Shown: piece by piece, positions 6,216 to 43,079 of the stretch
Position numbering within the stretch: position 1 is the first letter of the stretch
Layout of the letters: each line of letters starts with the position of its first letter
IMG/VR virus record: IMGVR_UViG_3300049489_000428
Location: 1-57,255 of that record
DNA: 57,255 bases
Reading direction: 5' to 3' (one strand)
Source: a virus
Notes under the pieces: model-generated
The model's input: the letters and a program-made list of their open reading frames with translations, nothing else
Told to the model about the DNA's origin: nothing
The model's database searches: none
Position numbers and translations under genes: made by a program

Positions 6216-6680
6216 ATGGGAACTAATATTACACCAATCACACCAGAGTATATTCCAATCTCTCCAGAATCATTGGAAATAGCCAATACATATCTTCAAT
6301 GTCAAGATGTGTCAGAAACAGCTAAACTTCTAGGATTACCTCTAGATCAAGTAGCTGCATATCTGGCAAAGCCTGACGTCAAAGAATATGTCACCGCAGT
6401 GTATTTAGATTCTGGATATAGAAATAGATTCAAACTAGGGAAAATCCTAGATGAAGTAATAGATAAAAAACTAATAGAAATGCAAGAAGCGGATATCGGT
6501 TCATCCAAAGATATTCTAGATATTTTAGCGATGGTTCATAAGATGCGAATGGATGAACTCGCAGCTATAACTGCGCTAGAAAAAGCTAGAAGTGCTGGAC
6601 CGAAGAAACAGACTAATATTCAAATAAATAATCCAGCTGGATCTATTTTTGAAAAGTTGATGGATAATGATGAATTGTAA
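6216..6680 (+). CDS. terminase small subunit (putative)
   Basis: 154 aa from MGTNITPITPEYIPISPES. An N-terminal helical segment with DVSETAKLLGLPLDQVAAYL looks like the helix-turn-helix that recognises packaging DNA. A helical oligomerisation region and a disordered tail with QTNIQINNP follow, as in many small terminases. It lies at the head of the late block, although three genes separate it from the large subunit. The frame extends back to 6123, but that would translate tandem-repeat DNA and cross the promoter, so the ATG at 6216 is preferred. Confidence 0.65.
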   Translation: MGTNITPITPEYIPISPESLEIANTYLQCQDVSETAKLLGLPLDQVAAYLAKPDVKEYVTAVYLDSGYRNRFKLGKILDEVIDKKLIEMQEADIGSSKDILDILAMVHKMRMDELAAITALEKARSAGPKKQTNIQINNPAGSIFEKLMDNDEL

Positions 6681-7909
6681 TGCCCCAAAATATATTTAAA
6701 GATCCCACAACAGGGAATGAGATCAAAGTACCAAAAGTAACAAAAAAACTAATTAAAGCAAATCAGAAGTTTGATACTTTATACAATTTAGGAACAATGG
6801 AATTAAATGCTGGTAGGCATAGTACAGCATTCGACTGTTTTAAAGCAGCACTAGAGCTTGGTGTCTCAAAGGAATGCCTGCTAAATATGTCCACCTGTTA
6901 TAAAGTTCTAGAGAACGAAGGTAAAGCTAAAGAGATTCTAGCTAGCATAATTAAAAACTATCCAGAATTTCCACTAGCGTATAACAATTACGGACTTATT
7001 AGATATGATGATGGTGAATTCGATGAAGCTATCGGGCACTATAATAAAGCTATCTCCTTATGGCCGGAATATGCTGACGCTCACTGGAATCACGCCTTAG
7101 CGTTACTTATTAAACGTTTTGATACTGGAGTACCAAATCCTTTAGCATATCAAGAGTTTGAATGGAGATTTAAAAAATCAAACGCTGTTGCGTTAGCTGA
7201 TGTAACTTCTCCGCGCTGGAATGGTGAGTCGCTTCATGGTAAAAAGCTGCTATTTATGTGTGAGCAAGGATTTGGTGATATGTTCATGTTTATGAGATAT
7301 CTCGAATTGTTACCTATGGATTCCGTATATGTGCACTTTCCTAAAGAGGTTAAAGATTTTCTAGGAGCGTATCAGTATGTGGAGTTTAGTAATATTCCGC
7401 ATGACTATCATATTCCAATTATGTCTTTGCCTAATGTTATGGGCGAGTATTTTCCTTCAGAGCCTTACCTCGATTTTTCTTCGAGTGCATGGAACTTCGG
7501 CGGTGGTAAAAACATTGGTATAGTATGGAAAGGTAATCGCGCTCACGCAAATGATAGAAATCGCTCTATGCATTTTAGAGATTTCTTCCCACTATTTGGT
7601 TTAGGAAAGGTTTGGTCTTTGCAGTATGGAGTTCCTGTTCAGCGACATGCAAAGGATATTCATGAATTGGAAATCCGTAGTTTTATTGATACTGCCAACT
7701 ATATTGCTGGGTTAGATCTAGTGGTTACTGTAGATACTTCTGTAGCTCACTTAGCTGGAGCAATGGGTAAGCCTGTGTTAGTGGTAATGCCAACTCGTGG
7801 GTTGGATTGGAGATGGGGTTCTACAGGTGATAAAACGCCTTGGTATCCTACGATGAGACTTTGTAGGGATAGAGGTCAGATGATTAAGATGGCGTCGGAG
7901 ATGTTATGA
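6680..7909 (+). CDS. TPR-containing glycosyltransferase (OGT/GT9-like)
   Basis: 409 aa. Residues about 25-155 carry TPR-like repeats (FDTLYNLGTMELNAGRHSTA; YNNYGLIRYDDGEFDEAIGH; WPEYADAHWNHALALL). The C-terminal half has the GT-B nucleotide-sugar site pattern of heptosyltransferase/OGT-like enzymes: GIVWKGNRAHANDRNRS, VTVDTSVAHLAGAMGKPVLV and DWRWG...PWYPTMRL. A TPR-GT fusion is the layout of protein O-glycosyltransferases. It sits between the terminase genes with tight overlaps to a methyltransferase. A substrate such as a virion protein or host glycan is inferred. Confidence 0.7.
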   Translation: MPQNIFKDPTTGNEIKVPKVTKKLIKANQKFDTLYNLGTMELNAGRHSTAFDCFKAALELGVSKECLLNMSTCYKVLENEGKAKEILASIIKNYPEFPLAYNNYGLIRYDDGEFDEAIGHYNKAISLWPEYADAHWNHALALLIKRFDTGVPNPLAYQEFEWRFKKSNAVALADVTSPRWNGESLHGKKLLFMCEQGFGDMFMFMRYLELLPMDSVYVHFPKEVKDFLGAYQYVEFSNIPHDYHIPIMSLPNVMGEYFPSEPYLDFSSSAWNFGGGKNIGIVWKGNRAHANDRNRSMHFRDFFPLFGLGKVWSLQYGVPVQRHAKDIHELEIRSFIDTANYIAGLDLVVTVDTSVAHLAGAMGKPVLVVMPTRGLDWRWGSTGDKTPWYPTMRLCRDRGQMIKMASEML

Positions 7910-8642: not shown

Positions 8643-9943
8643 TGCTTGAGATTTCTCGTAGTGATGTATCAGCTACTGAATATCAAGTGTTTCCAGCGGA
8701 TAAGAAGTTTATTAAGTTATCGGTTGAGAAGTATTTGAAGTTTGGAGATAAAGTAGCTAATAAACCACAAATTGCCATTATCAACGCTCTGCAAAATCCA
8801 AAATACAGATTTGTTACTGCAGCTATTAGTCGCAGACTTGGAAAGACTTACATTGCCAATATTATTGGGCATCTAGTAGCGCTTATGCCTGGAGCATCTG
8901 TACTGGTTATGTCTCCTAATTACTCGCTATCTGCAATTAGTTTTGATCTTCAGGTTGAGTTTGCTAAGAATACTGGTATTGAGATTACACGAAATAATGT
9001 TAAAGACAGAATACTTGAATTATCCAACGGTTCCTCGATACGTCTGGGTTCGGTTATGCAAGCAGATTCCGTCGTTGGTCGCAGCTACGATTTTATCATC
9101 TTTGACGAAGCGGCCCTTGCGGCTGAGGGTGAAAATGCCTTTCAAATTCAGCTTAGACCAACAATGGATAGACCAAATTCAAAAGCGCTATTCATCAGCA
9201 CACCTAGAGGTAAAAATAACTGGTTTGCAAAGTTCTTTTATCGTGGATATAGTACCGACTTTAAAGAGTGGTGCTCCATCAAAGCCGATTATAGAGAGAA
9301 CCCTAGAATTTTAGAGGCCGATGTTGAAGAGGCTCGTAGGTCAATGTCATCTGCGATGTTTAGGCAGGAATATGAAGCTGACTTCGCAGTGTTTGAGGGA
9401 CAGATTTTTAGATTCAATCAGGAATGTGTTGAGAATTTAAAGTTTATGGTTCCTCAGGAATTAGACGTATTTGCAGGAATTGACGTTGGTTTTAGAGATC
9501 CAACAGCTGTTATAATTTTAGGGTATGAGTTTAGTACGGGAAAATATTATGCACTAGAAGAATATCAAAATGCTGAGTCTACTACTAGTGGTCATGCTGA
9601 GGAAGTTCTAAAGTTAATAGAGAAGTATGGAATTTCTGCACTTTATATTGACCATGCGGCTGCGCAGACTAGAATGGACTGGGCATATGATTTTAATATT
9701 CAGACTTTGCCTGCTAAAAAATCTGTTTTAGATGGAATTGCTTTTGTACAAAATATAATTGAAAGAGACTTACTAATTGTAGATGAACATTGCAACAATC
9801 TTCTAGCTACATTAGATCAATACAGATGGGATCCTAATCCCAATTTAATAATGCAGAAACCTGAGCATGACCAATATTCGCATATGGCCGACGCTTTAAG
9901 GTACGGATTATATAGCTATAGTACTAGCACGGGGGTATATTGA
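8642..9943 (+). CDS. terminase large subunit
   Basis: 433 aa. ATPase domain: Walker A-like SRRLGKTYIAN (about residues 64-74), Walker B FIIFDEAAL (about 150-158) with catalytic Glu, coupling motif region FISTPRGKNNW. RNase H-fold nuclease: GIDVGFRDPTA (about 280), LYIDHAAAQ, and a C-terminal Asp in HMADALRYG. It cuts and pumps phage DNA into proheads through the portal. The length is typical. It is separated from the small subunit by three non-packaging genes, which is unusual. Confidence 0.9.
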   Translation: MLEISRSDVSATEYQVFPADKKFIKLSVEKYLKFGDKVANKPQIAIINALQNPKYRFVTAAISRRLGKTYIANIIGHLVALMPGASVLVMSPNYSLSAISFDLQVEFAKNTGIEITRNNVKDRILELSNGSSIRLGSVMQADSVVGRSYDFIIFDEAALAAEGENAFQIQLRPTMDRPNSKALFISTPRGKNNWFAKFFYRGYSTDFKEWCSIKADYRENPRILEADVEEARRSMSSAMFRQEYEADFAVFEGQIFRFNQECVENLKFMVPQELDVFAGIDVGFRDPTAVIILGYEFSTGKYYALEEYQNAESTTSGHAEEVLKLIEKYGISALYIDHAAAQTRMDWAYDFNIQTLPAKKSVLDGIAFVQNIIERDLLIVDEHCNNLLATLDQYRWDPNPNLIMQKPEHDQYSHMADALRYGLYSYSTSTGVY

Positions 9944-10368
9944 AGTATATATTAATAGGATTACTGTTGTTCACCTTTGCTGTTTCAGCTACAGATTATC
10001 GATGGAAAATTAATCGCGTAATTGACGGTGATACAATTGCAGTTACAATTACAGAACTTCCACTTAATGTTATGCCTTCTATGGTTCGTATTGGAGGAAT
10101 TGATACTCCAGAATTAGATGGTAGAGCTAAATGTGAAAAAGAACGATTATTGGGTCAAGCAGCTGCAAAATTTACTAGTGACTTTTTGAAGAATGCTATG
10201 TATGAAAATAAGAATATTTCTTTCACTAACATTAAACGTGATAAGTATTCTTCTAGAGTAGTTGGAGATGTTAAAGTTGATGGTCAGGATTTAGGGAAGT
10301 TATTACTAGAGAAAGGTTTTGCTAAGCCTTACGATGGTAAAAGTAAAAAACCAGATTGGTGTTCATGA
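9940..10368 (+). CDS. secreted thermonuclease-like nuclease (SNase family)
   Basis: 142 aa with an N-terminal signal peptide (KYILIGLLLFTFAVSAT). The SNase fold follows: VIDGDTIAV (Asp ligands), RIGGIDTPEL (catalytic Arg), CEKERLLG (Glu), and KYSSRVVGDVKVDGQDLGKLLLEKGFA (second Arg). Micrococcal nuclease homologues cut DNA and RNA. The start is TTG at 9940, overlapping the terminase stop. Export suggests action in the periplasm or outside the cell. It is followed at once by a terminator. Confidence 0.8.
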   Translation: MKYILIGLLLFTFAVSATDYRWKINRVIDGDTIAVTITELPLNVMPSMVRIGGIDTPELDGRAKCEKERLLGQAAAKFTSDFLKNAMYENKNISFTNIKRDKYSSRVVGDVKVDGQDLGKLLLEKGFAKPYDGKSKKPDWCS

Positions 10369-37352: not shown

Positions 37353-37940
37353 TTACCTAATTGGACATACTCCAGTAGCGCAGTTCTCATCAATCAATTC
37401 GTCGAAGCTATTGCTTCCGTCTAAATCAATTGGTTGCACTTTTGCTACATAATCTTCATACGCTTGTTTAGTTACTACTTCTTGTGGTAGATATGGGTAT
37501 CCCAAGTCTGCGGCAGTTTTGGTCGGGTCATTTCGGAACAGGAACGATACAGCAACGTAGCTATCCCAATTAGTATACAACCAATCAATGATGTCTTTTG
37601 TTTCCGATGGATCGTAAGATATTGTGCAGGATACATTTTGTTGACAGTAGTTATCCATAAGCATCTTGTAGCGGTTTAACTGAGAAACAGCACTTTCAAG
37701 ATTAACTTCTTTTCCATCAACAATGTCGAACTCCACATTCTCGTACTTTACTGGGAAAGTTACTAGAGTTGCTGCATTATCATACGGATGGTTAAAGACC
37801 CTATAACCGGCGTTCTTAAGTTTTTCAATAAGTGGATCGTACTTAGAGAATGCTACGTTATTGAAAATGTACTTGCCCATAGGCTTGTGCATACCTTCTG
37901 TAGTGTCGAATATCTTTCCGACTGTTCCGTCAGGTTTATT
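37353..37940 (-). CDS. class II ribonucleotide reductase, exon 2
   Basis: C-terminal 195 residues. The reading frame is open upstream of the first Met (NKPDGTVGKIFDTTEGMHKPMGKY), the conserved ITT-x-KPxGT region of the adenosylcobalamin enzyme. It ends with CATGVCPIR, the redox-active Cys pair that re-reduces the active site. Exon 2 is predicted to begin at 37940 after a G at 37941, joining ...NITT to NKPDGTV in frame. Confidence 0.8.
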   Translation of the reverse strand, partial: NKPDGTVGKIFDTTEGMHKPMGKYIFNNVAFSKYDPLIEKLKNAGYRVFNHPYDNAATLVTFPVKYENVEFDIVDGKEVNLESAVSQLNRYKMLMDNYCQQNVSCTISYDPSETKDIIDWLYTNWDSYVAVSFLFRNDPTKTAADLGYPYLPQEVVTKQAYEDYVAKVQPIDLDGSNSFDELIDENCATGVCPIR

Positions 37941-38087
37941 CAGTAATGTTACGTAATACTCGATTCCAGTATCACTCTGTATATTTCTATACAGCTCAGA
38001 CTATATCATCAACTCATTGAGTTGTTGCCCGCTTCGACCGATCTATCGGCCTACGTCTTTCGACTAGTCGTTGAACTTTCCACTGTT

Positions 38088-39020
38088 CTAGTGGCTTAGC
38101 TGCTGGTTGTCTGTTAGTCCAAGTTGCTTTTCTACATCATTTAATGTCCCCATCAAATGGTATGGAACTTGGCTCTTGAGAGTTTCTAGCAATTCAAGCA
38201 ATTTTTCATATTGAGTCGCCTCAATAAGGACCTTTATACTATTATTACATGCATGTAGGGTACCGTGACAATGTTGGCAAAGAGTTATCAAATTTATTAA
38301 TTGATGTGCTTCTGCAGGATTATTAAATAAATGGTAGTTTATAATGTGGTGAACGACTAAATTTTCCTCAGTACCACATTCTGCACAGTTATTATTTTGT
38401 TTAATAAAATCATTTCTAAACTTAGTCCAACCACCTAATTTAGGTCGTAGACACTGACCATGTTTAAAGGCCGGATTATTTTCACCTCGTTTAGATTTGC
38501 TTTTATATTCCGCAGCAGAAACACACTTTAGATTTTCTGGGAGTAGATTAGTGTAGTCTCCATCTTCTGGCACTATCCAACAATTTTCCGGAACATATTG
38601 TTTATTGTATAATTCCCATGCTACAATATGAGCTTTTACTTGACCACTATCTACATTAGATTTAGGGTGGTTTGGAAAAGATACTACGCATCTAATACTA
38701 CCGTCTGCGTAATTATAAGTTGGATTATTTAACCTATCCTCTAACATTGCTGTAATATATGTATTATTCCAGTAATCTTTTTGCTTATCATACTGTAATA
38801 AAAACTTTCTAACAACTTGTTTAATTTTAGGATATGGTAGGGAATCTATTCCTAAATAATCATAAATTCTATAATATACTGAAGCACTCAATCGATTTTC
38901 AGAATTACTTAACTTTAAAAACTTATGTAAGTCTATCTGTGTTGGTCCTTCACTAAATATATAGTTTAATACATTCTCTTTACCTATTGCATCAATATTT
39001 TTTTCTACATGATATGTCAT
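38088..39020 (-). CDS. intron-encoded HNH homing endonuclease
   Basis: 310 aa. A first HNH-like part (about 128-190: VKAHIVAWELYNKQYVPENC...LLPENLKCVSAAEYKSKSK) has the NUMOD/HNH_3 look. A second is classical HNH (about 215-260: CAECGTEENLVVHHIINYH; LCQHCHGTLH). It would cut intronless reductase genes to spread the intron. It has its own extended -10 promoter and an AGGAGGT ribosome site. Two catalytic modules in one protein is uncommon. Confidence 0.8.
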   Translation of the reverse strand: MTYHVEKNIDAIGKENVLNYIFSEGPTQIDLHKFLKLSNSENRLSASVYYRIYDYLGIDSLPYPKIKQVVRKFLLQYDKQKDYWNNTYITAMLEDRLNNPTYNYADGSIRCVVSFPNHPKSNVDSGQVKAHIVAWELYNKQYVPENCWIVPEDGDYTNLLPENLKCVSAAEYKSKSKRGENNPAFKHGQCLRPKLGGWTKFRNDFIKQNNNCAECGTEENLVVHHIINYHLFNNPAEAHQLINLITLCQHCHGTLHACNNSIKVLIEATQYEKLLELLETLKSQVPYHLMGTLNDVEKQLGLTDNQQLSH

Positions 39021-39027
39021 TTTTGTT

Positions 39028-39071
39028 ACCTCCTATTTTACAATTATAACATAGGAGGTAATAAAATTCAA
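39028..39071 (-). promoter_or_regulatory. intron promoter with sequestered ribosome site
   Basis: TTGAAT (39066-39071), 17-bp spacer, TGT-TATAAT (39043-39048). ACCTCCTAT (39051-39059 on the minus strand) pairs exactly with ATAGGAGGT (39028-39036), hiding the ribosome site in read-through RNA. Transcripts from the internal promoter start near 39036 and lack the upstream arm. Confidence 0.75.
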
Positions 39072-39086
39072 GTATATTTTTACTTT

Positions 39087-40529
39087 AGTCGTTATGTTCT
39101 TCGGATACGCAGTTCCTAATTCTTCGGCCATGCTATATGCTGAGGCTGTAATAGTACGCTCAAGTCGTCTGTAATCGAAAGCCTGCATTTCCGGTACGGC
39201 TGCGACACCCGCTAACGATACACCACATAAATGTAGGAAATCGTTATTTAAGTGCCACTTTTCTTGCAATATTCCATCTCTGAAATCGACAACTGTTTGA
39301 CGGTAGTTGGCCCTCGCGATAAGATTTGCAGCCTTGTAAAGACCCAAAGTGTCGTCTTTAAATTTCTGTAAGTCGATCGTAACCAAGCAGCAAAACCCGC
39401 CTGACGGTGGCAGTAAGATCTCACCACATGGATTAGTAAGAGTTGCCCAGGGGGCTCTTCTCCGCATGGCCTCCCCATTGATAATGCCGGGCTCGCCGTT
39501 ACCACCTGCGTTGACGAGACCGAATATGTACTCCAACTCACTGCGGCTAGGTTTAACGCGGAAGAAAAGGGAGTTGTTACTTTGGCTTCTGTGTGATTTT
39601 CCATTTTCCCATATTCCTACTTTCGATGTCGCAAATGCTTGCCATTCAGGATCTCCATAATCGTATACTGCAATTTGAGCGCTGCGACGTGTTGATAAAA
39701 CTGTACCTAACAGGTTAATAATGTCTAGAATATCTATTGCTGTAAGTAGACTATCTGCCCTTTTATTTAGTATATGAAAGATTTTTTCATATGCAGCAGA
39801 AATGCCGACGTCGCCTTGACTAATCCATCCATAGTTGCGAAGTCGCAAACCTGGAGCACGAATATCTGAGAAGTCCAATACTAGAGTTTTAGCGGCGTAT
39901 TTCCCAGCAACAAGTTTACCTACGCTCTTTGCCCACGCTTCTGCGGAATCACCAACTTTAATTGTCCACACTCTTGTAATTGGGTCGTAACTCTCCGTAT
40001 TATTTTCCGGACCCTTTTCTGTACTATTTTTAGATCTGATTATCTTTAGCTCATTAATATGCTTCTTAAAGCCGTTTAAGGTTCCAGGTACTGGCCTAAA
40101 GCCTACCCCCGCTCCTTGCAGCAATAACCAGAAGGCATCTACTACGTCATAAATAGTTTGAATATCCAAAGCGGAACAGTTAAAGTTAGAAGCTTCTCTA
40201 GTTTTGCCAACTTCCGTACCGCCTAACCATAGTGTACGCCCCGAAGGAGTAACTTTACGCTCTAGTATTAGTTGTCTTAACTCCTGTAGTTCAAGTTCTT
40301 GATCATAATTTAATTTAATCCATTGTATATTTGGATTATCTTCTGTAATAAATCGTAATTCAAATTCTGTATTTTCTTGATGAGTTAGAGCTCGTTCCCA
40401 TAACCAACGCTGATGTTTAATTACTCTATCGACTGTTTCGGCCCAAGTTTCAAACTCAGTCCCCTCAATATTCTTAGCTCTGTTATATGTTCTTCGTGTA
40501 ATAATAGCGGCGCGTGCTGATACTGTCAT
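39087..40529 (-). CDS. class II (B12-dependent) ribonucleotide reductase, exon 1
   Basis: 481 residues up to the intron. Contains PSGRTLWLGGT, FNCSALDIQTIYDVVDAFWLLLQGAGVGF (first redox Cys), NPCGEILLPPSGGFCCLVTIDL (active-site Cys-x-Glu) and ELGTAYPKNITT. A single-chain reductase of about 676 aa makes deoxynucleotides for phage DNA and needs adenosylcobalamin, not oxygen. It would work under low oxygen, in line with the FNR-like boxes. No B subunit gene is present. Confidence 0.85.
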
Positions 40530-40978
40530 TTTCCAGTTGATCCAAATCCCTTGTCGCCTCTTTCGGACGACTTACTAAATTCATTTACTATCCTAAACTT
40601 AGGAGTTACAACAGGTATAATGACCAGTTGAGCAATTCTATCTCCAATATTTACGGTTTGAGGTTTTAACCAGTCTGCATTATCATTATACAAATAAACC
40701 ATAATTTCGCCCTGATAACCAGAATCAATTACTCCTACGCAATTTCCGAGACGCATATTGCGTTTAGCCATTCCACTTCTAGAAAACACTAGACCAACAT
40801 ATCCGGGTGGAATATCAACAGCCACTCCAGTTTTTACCAATACAGAGCACTGGGACATAATAGTTACGTTCTCTGCAGCTAATAGATCTGCTCCGGCGTC
40901 TATTAGATGTGCTCGATAAGGGATCCAATCTTCTACATTTTTATCTTGTGTTATAACTTTTAAATCAATAGATTCCAT
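40526..40978 (-). CDS. dut: dUTPase (trimeric)
   Basis: 150 aa. Motifs: DAGADLLA (I, about 27-34), RSGMAKRN (II), GVIDSGYQGEI (III), RIAQLVIIPV (IV) and RGDKGFGSTGK (V, C-terminal arm). It hydrolyses dUTP to dUMP, keeping uracil out of DNA and feeding dTMP. It overlaps the reductase start by 4 bp. In T5 a dUTPase gene likewise follows D15. Confidence 0.92.
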   Translation of the reverse strand: MESIDLKVITQDKNVEDWIPYRAHLIDAGADLLAAENVTIMSQCSVLVKTGVAVDIPPGYVGLVFSRSGMAKRNMRLGNCVGVIDSGYQGEIMVYLYNDNADWLKPQTVNIGDRIAQLVIIPVVTPKFRIVNEFSKSSERGDKGFGSTGK

Positions 40979-40987
40979 TTTATTCTC

Positions 40988-42205
40988 TTAACTTTTCACT
41001 AGGTATAGACTACCGGGTGGAGGAAGGATTGATGATTCTTGTCTGAAATTAGCCACTATTGCGGCACCAACATTAATGACTCTAGTATTATCTGATGTGG
41101 CAACTGTGCCCATAGGTGTTGAGCCATACAACTTATTTGGGTTAGAGAAATATGCCAGACGTGTGCAACTTGTTCCAGCAGCGGCACATACGTTATTATA
41201 GGCCATGACTGTTCTCCATTTCTCGATAGGGACAGCATATCCATGACCATAGGCATATGGGGATGTGCTTGGATCAACGTATGGATCATGAAGGGCTCCA
41301 AAATTATGACCTAGTTCGTGTGCGAAACTTAAATTGCTAACCGCACATCCCCTATTAACTGTAGTAAAAGCATAGCTACTATATGGACCAATCCACCCTA
41401 AACCGCAGTATTGTCCGTTCTCAATAATCATACTAACCATGTCGGCTTTGTATGTATTACGTAAAGTATGTATCTCATCCAGATACCCGTCCGCAGTACT
41501 GGTTAGTCTATTTAGATCTGTATTAAAATCCCCACTCTCAACATAACTGCTCACATACGTATATACTAAACGTAATCTTGGGAGTACTCCACTGTTGTAG
41601 TAGGCATTATTAACTGAGTCTATAGCCTGTTGCGCAAATGATTGAGCAGCAGAACCAATAGCTATTCCAGAGTTTGATGAGTAGACTACCATTACATCAA
41701 TTATAGTTCCGGAATCTGCGGATACGTCGGCATAGTTCGGTGGAAGCTTATAGGCAGAATTATCTGGATGATCTTCCTGAAATCCCTCAGGTAGTACTTC
41801 TTTAAGACTGTACGATCCATAATTGTTTGGTAAGATTTCATATATCTGTGCTTCATTAGTTATATTATCTAGTAGCCGTATATTACCAACTAGAGTACCA
41901 TTCGTATAGGTTAGAATAGCTTGACTTTTTCCGTGCGTTGGAATTTTTCCATAAAGTGTAAAATCATCATTAGTACGAATATCTTTATTAGTTACTATAA
42001 TATCAAAACTATTAGAGTCGAACGTATCAACGGTAATGGATCGCGATTGAAGTGCTCGCATATTCAAGGATACCGAGCGTTCCAGTGATCCTCGATTATC
42101 CATTCTTACTACTTTTTCATTTTCTACATTAAATAAGGGTTCGGCAGAAAGGTTAGTAGATATTACTAGTAAACTAAGTATTCCTACTAATATAGCTTTA
42201 TACAC
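40988..42205 (-). CDS. secreted metzincin (reprolysin-like M12) metalloprotease
   Basis: 405 aa with signal peptide (MYKAILVGILSLLVISTNLSA), a propeptide-like N-terminal 140 residues, and a catalytic domain with FAHELGHNFGALHD (about 299-312: HExxHxxGxxHD) and a Met-turn VMAY (about 340). Cys residues around NRGCAVS, NVCAAAGTSC suggest disulfides and periplasmic or extracellular folding. Such enzymes are known from free-living bacteria; it lies in a replication operon between dUTPase and flap endonuclease. Substrate unknown: envelope, pilus or rival proteins. Confidence 0.85.
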   Translation of the reverse strand: MYKAILVGILSLLVISTNLSAEPLFNVENEKVVRMDNRGSLERSVSLNMRALQSRSITVDTFDSNSFDIIVTNKDIRTNDDFTLYGKIPTHGKSQAILTYTNGTLVGNIRLLDNITNEAQIYEILPNNYGSYSLKEVLPEGFQEDHPDNSAYKLPPNYADVSADSGTIIDVMVVYSSNSGIAIGSAAQSFAQQAIDSVNNAYYNSGVLPRLRLVYTYVSSYVESGDFNTDLNRLTSTADGYLDEIHTLRNTYKADMVSMIIENGQYCGLGWIGPYSSYAFTTVNRGCAVSNLSFAHELGHNFGALHDPYVDPSTSPYAYGHGYAVPIEKWRTVMAYNNVCAAAGTSCTRLAYFSNPNKLYGSTPMGTVATSDNTRVINVGAAIVANFRQESSILPPPGSLYLVKS

Positions 42206-43079
42206 CTATATATTCCTCCAATTTGTTCTTTAAATCTTTTAGATTATCTTCACCTATGGCTTCTTCACAGAAACTTTTTAGATCCATTAATCTATAATTT
42301 AGAATTATTAATTCTGGTTGCTCATTTAGTTTCTTGATATAAACATACTTACTGTTTATTGGGAGTGCGTCGTAAATATCTAGTGCAGAACCATACTGTT
42401 CCACTAGTTGTTGTGCGCGTTTAGGACCAACTCCCTCAACACCTTTTACGCTATCTCCAGAATCACCTTGTAGACACTTAATACTGATGTAGTCCTCAAT
42501 AGAAAACTCATAGTGCTCATTCCAGTTCTCTTTAGTATATTCTTTTCTAGTCACATAAGAGAATTGTGAGACATTGTCGTCTATCAGTAGATTCCAGTCC
42601 TTATCACTAGAAGCTAGCCAGACCTTGATGCCCCACTCTTTACTTTTGTTGGAGATATAGGCGGCAATATCGTCAGCTTCAACTCCCTTATATTTTAACA
42701 ACAACCAGCTAGGTTTACGCTTACTAATGTATTCCATAGTCTGATTGAATTCTGTTAGAAAGTCCTGAAATGCTTTATTCTCTTCATCAGTAGCCTCTGC
42801 ATATTTTAATCTACGAGCCTCTTTGTAACTTGGGGATAATTTTAGTCGATAATCATATCCCCCATCACAGGCAATTATAATCTTGCCGGCATCATAAGAT
42901 TTTGCTAGAGATTCGATCACTCCTATATAATCTAGTGTGAAAGATTTCTGTTCTGGAATGTCCGTACTACCGCTCTTAGGGCGTGGTTTATATCTAAAAG
43001 CAAGGTTGAGAGCATCCACTACTAGTATTGTTTTTAAATCACCTCTTTGTGTGTTTAATTCTTCAAAGGTTTTAGCCAT
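42198..43079 (-). CDS. flap endonuclease / 5'-3' exonuclease (T5 D15-like)
   Basis: 293 aa. VVDALNLAFRYKPRP near the N-terminus, YKGVEADDIAAYI (about 129-141) and ASSDKDWNLLIDD give the metal-binding acidic residues. The helix-hairpin-helix GVEGVGPKRAQQLVEQYG (about 214-231) binds DNA. It removes 5' flaps and Okazaki primers. Same neighbours as T5 D15. The polymerase has no 5' nuclease domain, so this enzyme supplies it. Confidence 0.88.
   Translation of the reverse strand: MAKTFEELNTQRGDLKTILVVDALNLAFRYKPRPKSGSTDIPEQKSFTLDYIGVIESLAKSYDAGKIIIACDGGYDYRLKLSPSYKEARRLKYAEATDEENKAFQDFLTEFNQTMEYISKRKPSWLLLKYKGVEADDIAAYISNKSKEWGIKVWLASSDKDWNLLIDDNVSQFSYVTRKEYTKENWNEHYEFSIEDYISIKCLQGDSGDSVKGVEGVGPKRAQQLVEQYGSALDIYDALPINSKYVYIKKLNEQPELIILNYRLMDLKSFCEEAIGEDNLKDLKNKLEEYIGV

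Follow-up and report, generated by a model that had tools for sequence, protein, structure and literature searches.

The window analysed here, a 57,255-base IMG/VR virus record taken over its whole length, carries a gene for an M72-like metzincin protease among the replication genes of a T5-like phage. We think it fairly probable that this is an acquired secreted zinc endopeptidase which became fixed in the early/replication operon and is exported, cutting envelope, surface or extracellular proteins. That the metzincin is intact, has its own Shine-Dalgarno sequence, is a unique insertion and has a phage-adapted composition is shown or strongly supported by the sequence, and the features of the protease and its setting go far beyond chance. 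As a protein the protease is unremarkable within an already known group of secreted metzincins; what is unusual is its place in a T5-like replication operon. Among phage proteins, morphogenesis proteases and lysis enzymes are well known, whereas exported general endopeptidases are, to our knowledge, not familiar in lytic phages. The features referred to throughout are as follows:

40988..42205, minus strand: predicted secreted Mep72/M72-like metzincin protease, 405 aa, GTG start (ORF, Pfam and NCBIfam matches, AlphaFold model, structure comparison)
42143..42205, minus strand: predicted Sec signal peptide, residues 1-21, MYKAILVGILSLLVISTNLSA (hydrophobicity rank, alignment with the homologue L082)
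41705..42142, minus strand: prodomain and linker, residues 22-167, with a beta-rich domain at 41-137 (AF2 model, alignment to pro-ADAM17 and profragilysin)
41033..41704, minus strand: catalytic metzincin domain, residues 168-391 (Pfam match, AF2 model, structure comparison)
41285..41320, minus strand: zinc-binding site HELGHNFGALHD, residues 296-307 (ORF translation; H296, E297, H300 and H306 in 46/46 alignment rows)
42213..42221, minus strand: Shine-Dalgarno region of the protease gene, inside the 3' end of the flap-endonuclease gene
42198..43079, minus strand: flap endonuclease (FEN, T5 D15-like), upstream neighbour (phrog_107, synteny)
40526..40978, minus strand: dUTPase, downstream neighbour (phrog_135, synteny)

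Genomic setting in a T5-like phage

The plus strand of the window encodes the terminase, the portal and a fusion of head protease and major head protein, and carries tail genes, while the minus strand holds a replication operon in which the genes for ribonucleotide reductase (RNR), dUTPase, the protease, the flap endonuclease, a RusA-like protein, SbcC and SbcD follow each other, together with genes for SSB, a helicase, a polymerase, DnaB and a two-part NAD ligase. The polymerase has its top matches in T5-group phages at about 46% identity, and the split NAD ligase, polymerase, SbcCD and D15 flap endonuclease are found together with RNR, so that by gene content the window represents part of a divergent T5-like phage genome. 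Its host is probably Gram-negative, since there is an Rz1-like lipoprotein (weak hits), the gene of which lies with an M15 endolysin gene at 34.7-35.4 kb, far from the protease gene.

Three other regions of the window merit mention. The RNR large-subunit gene (37353-40529) is split into ORFs at 39033-40529 and 37353-37892, between which lie the ORF of an HNH endonuclease (38088-39020) and a match to a group I intron (RF00028, 90.5 bits, 37977-38258); in related viral loci the RNR parts are ~50 bp apart. Between the terminase and portal genes, positions 9940-10368 encode a Staphylococcal-nuclease-like protein with a TTG start and a signal-peptide-like N-terminus, possibly a second exported enzyme of the phage. 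Upstream of the terminase gene, positions 6680-7909 encode a TPR-repeat protein whose C-terminal part weakly matches glycosyltransferase-9.

Gene structure and family assignment

The protease ORF is intact, with no internal stops in its 405 codons, and overlaps the flap-endonuclease gene by 8 bp, with a gap of 9 bp to the dUTPase gene. The sequence 5' of the start reads TTGGAGGAATATATAG-GTG, which places a strong Shine-Dalgarno sequence (GGAGG) 9 nt ahead of the GTG. The Pfam model Reprolysin_5 (PF13688) matches at 60.1 bits against a curated cut-off of 27 (E 4.5e-16), as do other, related reprolysin models, and the HExxHxxGxxH/D site, the Met-turn C-terminal to it (RTVMAYN, M334; Met in 45/46 alignment rows) and the predicted fold are all those of the metzincin superfamily.

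Among NCBIfam models the top match is Mep72, which covers the whole catalytic domain (residues 168-388, E 4.8e-24), followed by CpaA, for which the match extends over the last third only; both score far under their full-length cut-offs. The phage protein is thus not a Mep72 equivalog (NF052434), with 84.9 bits against a cut-off of 645 and model positions 1-232 of 573 only, whereas the match over the catalytic part does make its catalytic domain homologous to the MEROPS M72 peptidyl-Asp metallopeptidases, to which Mep72 is assigned (PMC4222646). On these matches the phage protein belongs with the bacterial Mep72/MEROPS-M72-like secreted proteases.

Signal peptide, prodomain and catalytic domain

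By inspection the N-terminus (MYK-AILVGILSLLVIS-TNLSA, with EPLF after the boundary) is that of a typical Sec signal peptide, with K3 followed by hydrophobic residues 4-16, and this 13-residue stretch ranks third in hydrophobicity among 60 window ORFs tested. The alignment with the Pseudoalteromonas homologue L082 begins at the signal peptide of L082, which falls at the same place as that of the phage protease. Export by Sec is thus predicted.

AlphaFold2 was run on an alignment of 46 sequences (the phage protease and 45 bacterial and viral homologues), and gave a model with pLDDT 88 and pTM 0.88, in which a linker joins a beta-rich prodomain (strands 41-137) to the catalytic domain (168-391), and a loose tail follows. 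Residues H296, E297, H300, H306, R249, D255, G322, S354 and R388 are invariant in the alignment, and all cysteines of the protease (267, 287, 340 and 347) lie in the catalytic domain and are kept in 44-45 of the 46 sequences, which fits an exported, disulphide-bonded enzyme. The best match to a solved structure is CpaA (6o38; Z 23.7 over 202 residues, 22% identity), next come the ADAM17 and profragilysin zymogens, with alignments that take in both the prodomain and the catalytic domain (Z 17-19 over 265-301 residues), and adamalysins and ADAMTS align with Z about 15.

From the model we infer that the protease is made as a zymogen. An ADAM-type cysteine switch, as in the prodomain of ADAM/M12B reprolysins, is excluded because the phage prodomain has no cysteine, and fragilysin and the astacins use an aspartate switch (PMC9629494). 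Position 138 is a prodomain Asp in 43 of the 46 sequences and position 84 a near-invariant prodomain Trp (42/46), and both are Leu in the phage protease, so its zymogen latency or control may differ. The idea that the loss of D138 is unique to the phage was weakened, as this residue is apparently absent from the plasmid-borne bacterial homologues L082 and L084 as well.

An earlier note on this DNA had described a complete metzincin with a signal peptide and a propeptide-like region, set in a phage replication operon. The zinc site, Met-turn and Reprolysin_5 score bear out the first of these, the hydrophobic N-terminus agrees with the second as a prediction, the propeptide-like region appears as a folded domain in the confident model, and the RNR, dUTPase, FEN, RusA, SbcC, SbcD and SSB neighbours confirm the setting.

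A unique insertion between the FEN and dUTPase genes

We collected 80 related viral loci via their flap endonuclease, which is only about 50% identical to that of this phage. The gene order SbcC-RusA-FEN-dUTPase-RNR is kept in these loci as far as each contig reaches, and in all 73 loci with both the FEN and dUTPase genes the dUTPase match (usually beginning at residue 15-19) starts no more than about 130 bp from the end of FEN, so that no further gene would fit between them. Among the loci examined, the protease is present at this junction only in this phage. A protein search did not find it in 30 of the related records, and a reprolysin HMM likewise found no match in 30 of them, with the viral contigs L085 and L086 positive in the same run. 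A search of IMG/VR with window-specific peptides for close relatives returned none.

The protease gene has a GC content of 38.8% (GC3 26.8%), and its codon usage and GC are inside the range of 20 other window genes, whereas the two nearest bacterial loci have 64% and 71% GC. This phage-like composition argues against both an assembly join and a very recent arrival of the gene, either of which appears unlikely.

Homologues in bacteria and other phages

A tblastn search with the protease against 50,697 phage records gave no match at E<=1, while the same query matched plasmid-borne bacterial proteins with up to E 1e-47, showing that the search works. PHROG 18894, a family with function not known, matches the protease at 4.5e-10, and distant phage or prophage relatives are thus already present in the PHROG library. 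A Foldseek search against BFVD gave low-probability matches only (in its top rows the TM to the query was at most 0.17), phmmer against PDB matched mainly the zinc motif (E about 0.1), and no relevant paper on reprolysins or secreted metalloproteases encoded by phages turned up in a literature search.

A genome scan gave at least 473 confirmed matches, the best 80 of which were from Lysobacteraceae (including Xanthomonas and Stenotrophomonas), Chloroflexota, Acidobacteriota and others; judging from these matches, this is a common family of secreted bacterial proteins. Among the matches listed, the nearest relatives are two bacterial MAGs, L087 (53% identical) and L088 (47%), which form a clade with the phage protease (support 100/99). 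The contig L087 carries the label Anaerolineae, yet its protease groups with a Bordetella-labelled MAG (100/99), and the contig is possibly mis-binned. That L087 could itself be a phage was not accepted, as its GC is 64% and a rough ORF list held no recognisable phage genes.

Distant copies were found in three other viral contigs in IMG/VR. L085 has an SU10-like portal and a reprolysin with an fn3 domain near a muramidase gene, L086 is a prophage in which a reprolysin-like protein with a PPC domain adjoins an amidase gene, and L169 (70.9 kb) encodes a catalytic domain after a signal-peptide-like N-terminus. Like our phage these are phage contigs with an M72-like metzincin, but they differ in identity (about 25-33%), phage type and gene place, and in our tree, which was made without L086 and L169, L085 is placed elsewhere than the phage protease, on a long branch. 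The reprolysin of L085 (467-2053) carries its fn3 domain at the C-terminus, and the relatives of this domain include phage tail and virion proteins; the protein could be surface- or virion-attached.

The earlier note had known of no common phage homologue, which holds in so far as none was found in the 50,697 phage records, but needs amending for the rare distant ones (PHROG 18894, L085, L086 and L169). By these searches secreted-metzincin genes in phages are very rare, and the distant copies suggest that this bacterial secreted-protease family has likely entered phages more than once. Two of that note's proposals did not gain from the comparison: the relatives found are mostly environmental bacteria, which lends no support to a virulence cargo, and nothing points to pili as the target.

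Possible role during infection

The preferred explanation is that a T5-like phage of a Gram-negative host acquired the gene for a bacterial secreted zinc endopeptidase, which would then have been fixed in the early/replication operon between the flap-endonuclease and dUTPase genes. By analogy with the timing in T5, the protease would be made alongside the replication proteins; it would then be exported by Sec, form its disulphides and mature in the periplasm, and may cut envelope or surface proteins while the cell still makes phage. A host with type II secretion would release it to the outside directly; in other hosts release would come at lysis. The likeliest benefit would be local proteolysis of surface, matrix and debris proteins which hinder spread, including by adsorption to spent receptors. 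The signal peptide could be explained by the need for disulphides and zymogen maturation alone. In favour of such an acquired enzyme we count the four catalytic His/Glu residues and four cysteines retained in the comparison with 45 bacterial and viral homologues, and the other phage contigs with distant copies, two of which are beside lysis genes. Against it we count that Mep72 is weak on generic substrates and needs BamI in E. coli (PMC4334185), while no partner gene (BamI counterpart) was identified for the phage protease, and that both W84 and D138 have become Leu in the phage copy.

Proteolytic superinfection exclusion, in which the protease clips the outer-membrane receptor of the phage or a partner of it, is an unlikely but respectable alternative: the infected cell would be protected and progeny freed from receptor-bearing debris, as a proteolytic counterpart of Llp blocking FhuA. 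An early exported lipoprotein of T5 does act on its receptor from the periplasm (PMC9586334), and here a protease gene with a signal peptide sits among the replication genes of a T5-like phage, but the llp gene of T5 adjoins the receptor-binding-protein gene outside the replication operon, and the bacterial relatives of the protease are general secreted enzymes. The fuller version, in which the metzincin cuts the phage's own receptor or other host surface proteins and so both clears receptors and excludes superinfection, its zymogen control having changed with the loss of the prodomain Asp, is distinctly doubtful.

A helper in lysis or envelope remodelling, weakening periplasmic or outer-membrane proteins ahead of endolysin and spanin, would fit the copies adjoining muramidase or amidase genes in two other phage contigs, but we consider it quite unlikely given that the protease gene belongs to the replication operon and the M15 endolysin and Rz1-like genes lie a long way off. 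We regard as very unlikely a nutritional or auxiliary metabolic role, in which periplasmic or extracellular protein is degraded to supply amino acids to the infected cell; while the family is widespread in secreting environmental bacteria and the co-operonic RNR and dUTPase likewise serve precursor supply, infection is short and uptake from digestion slow, and the neighbouring genes that were scanned included no recognisable linked peptidase or transporter. Finally, a passenger gene that brings the phage no benefit at present, or an error in contig assembly, would account for the presence of the protease in one T5-like contig only, but is highly improbable given the tight gene overlap, the own Shine-Dalgarno sequence, the adapted codon usage and an active site which is fully conserved at about 50% identity to the nearest homologues.

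The acquired protease gene is a concrete, clonable candidate for asking whether a phage remodels the host surface by proteolysis during infection; should the enzyme do no more than break down extracellular protein, the gene would be cargo of moderate interest.

Comparison with known systems

The T5 Llp protein is an exported lipoprotein, expressed early, which disables the receptor from the periplasm (PMC9586334). It resembles the phage protease as an exported protein made early in a T5-type phage (predicted for the protease), but is not a protease and has no sequence relation to it, so that the analogy is one of function only. With the profragilysin and ADAM17 zymogens the phage protease shares the prodomain and catalytic fold, at an identity of only about 10-17%. 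CpaA of Acinetobacter has four Ig-like repeats and the chaperone CpaB (PMC7542363), whereas the phage protein has 405 aa and a single prodomain; no N-terminal Ig-like repeat or CpaB counterpart was seen, the genes beside it being those for FEN and dUTPase.

Mep72 of Pseudomonas aeruginosa is, from the sequence comparisons, the nearest characterised relative, an exported metzincin with the same HExxHxxGxxH site. It differs in having two carbohydrate-binding modules and the partner BamI (PMC4222646, PMC4334185), whereas the phage protease has a prodomain and no binding modules. Mep72 leaves P. aeruginosa by type II secretion and is autoprocessed, is toxic in E. coli without BamI, and alters the mobility of a few secreted proteins while not digesting casein or gelatin (PMC4334185); an earlier report saw its activity in the outer-membrane fraction (PMC4222646). 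As Mep72 affects only a small number of secreted proteins, a selective substrate of the phage protease is more likely than bulk digestion.
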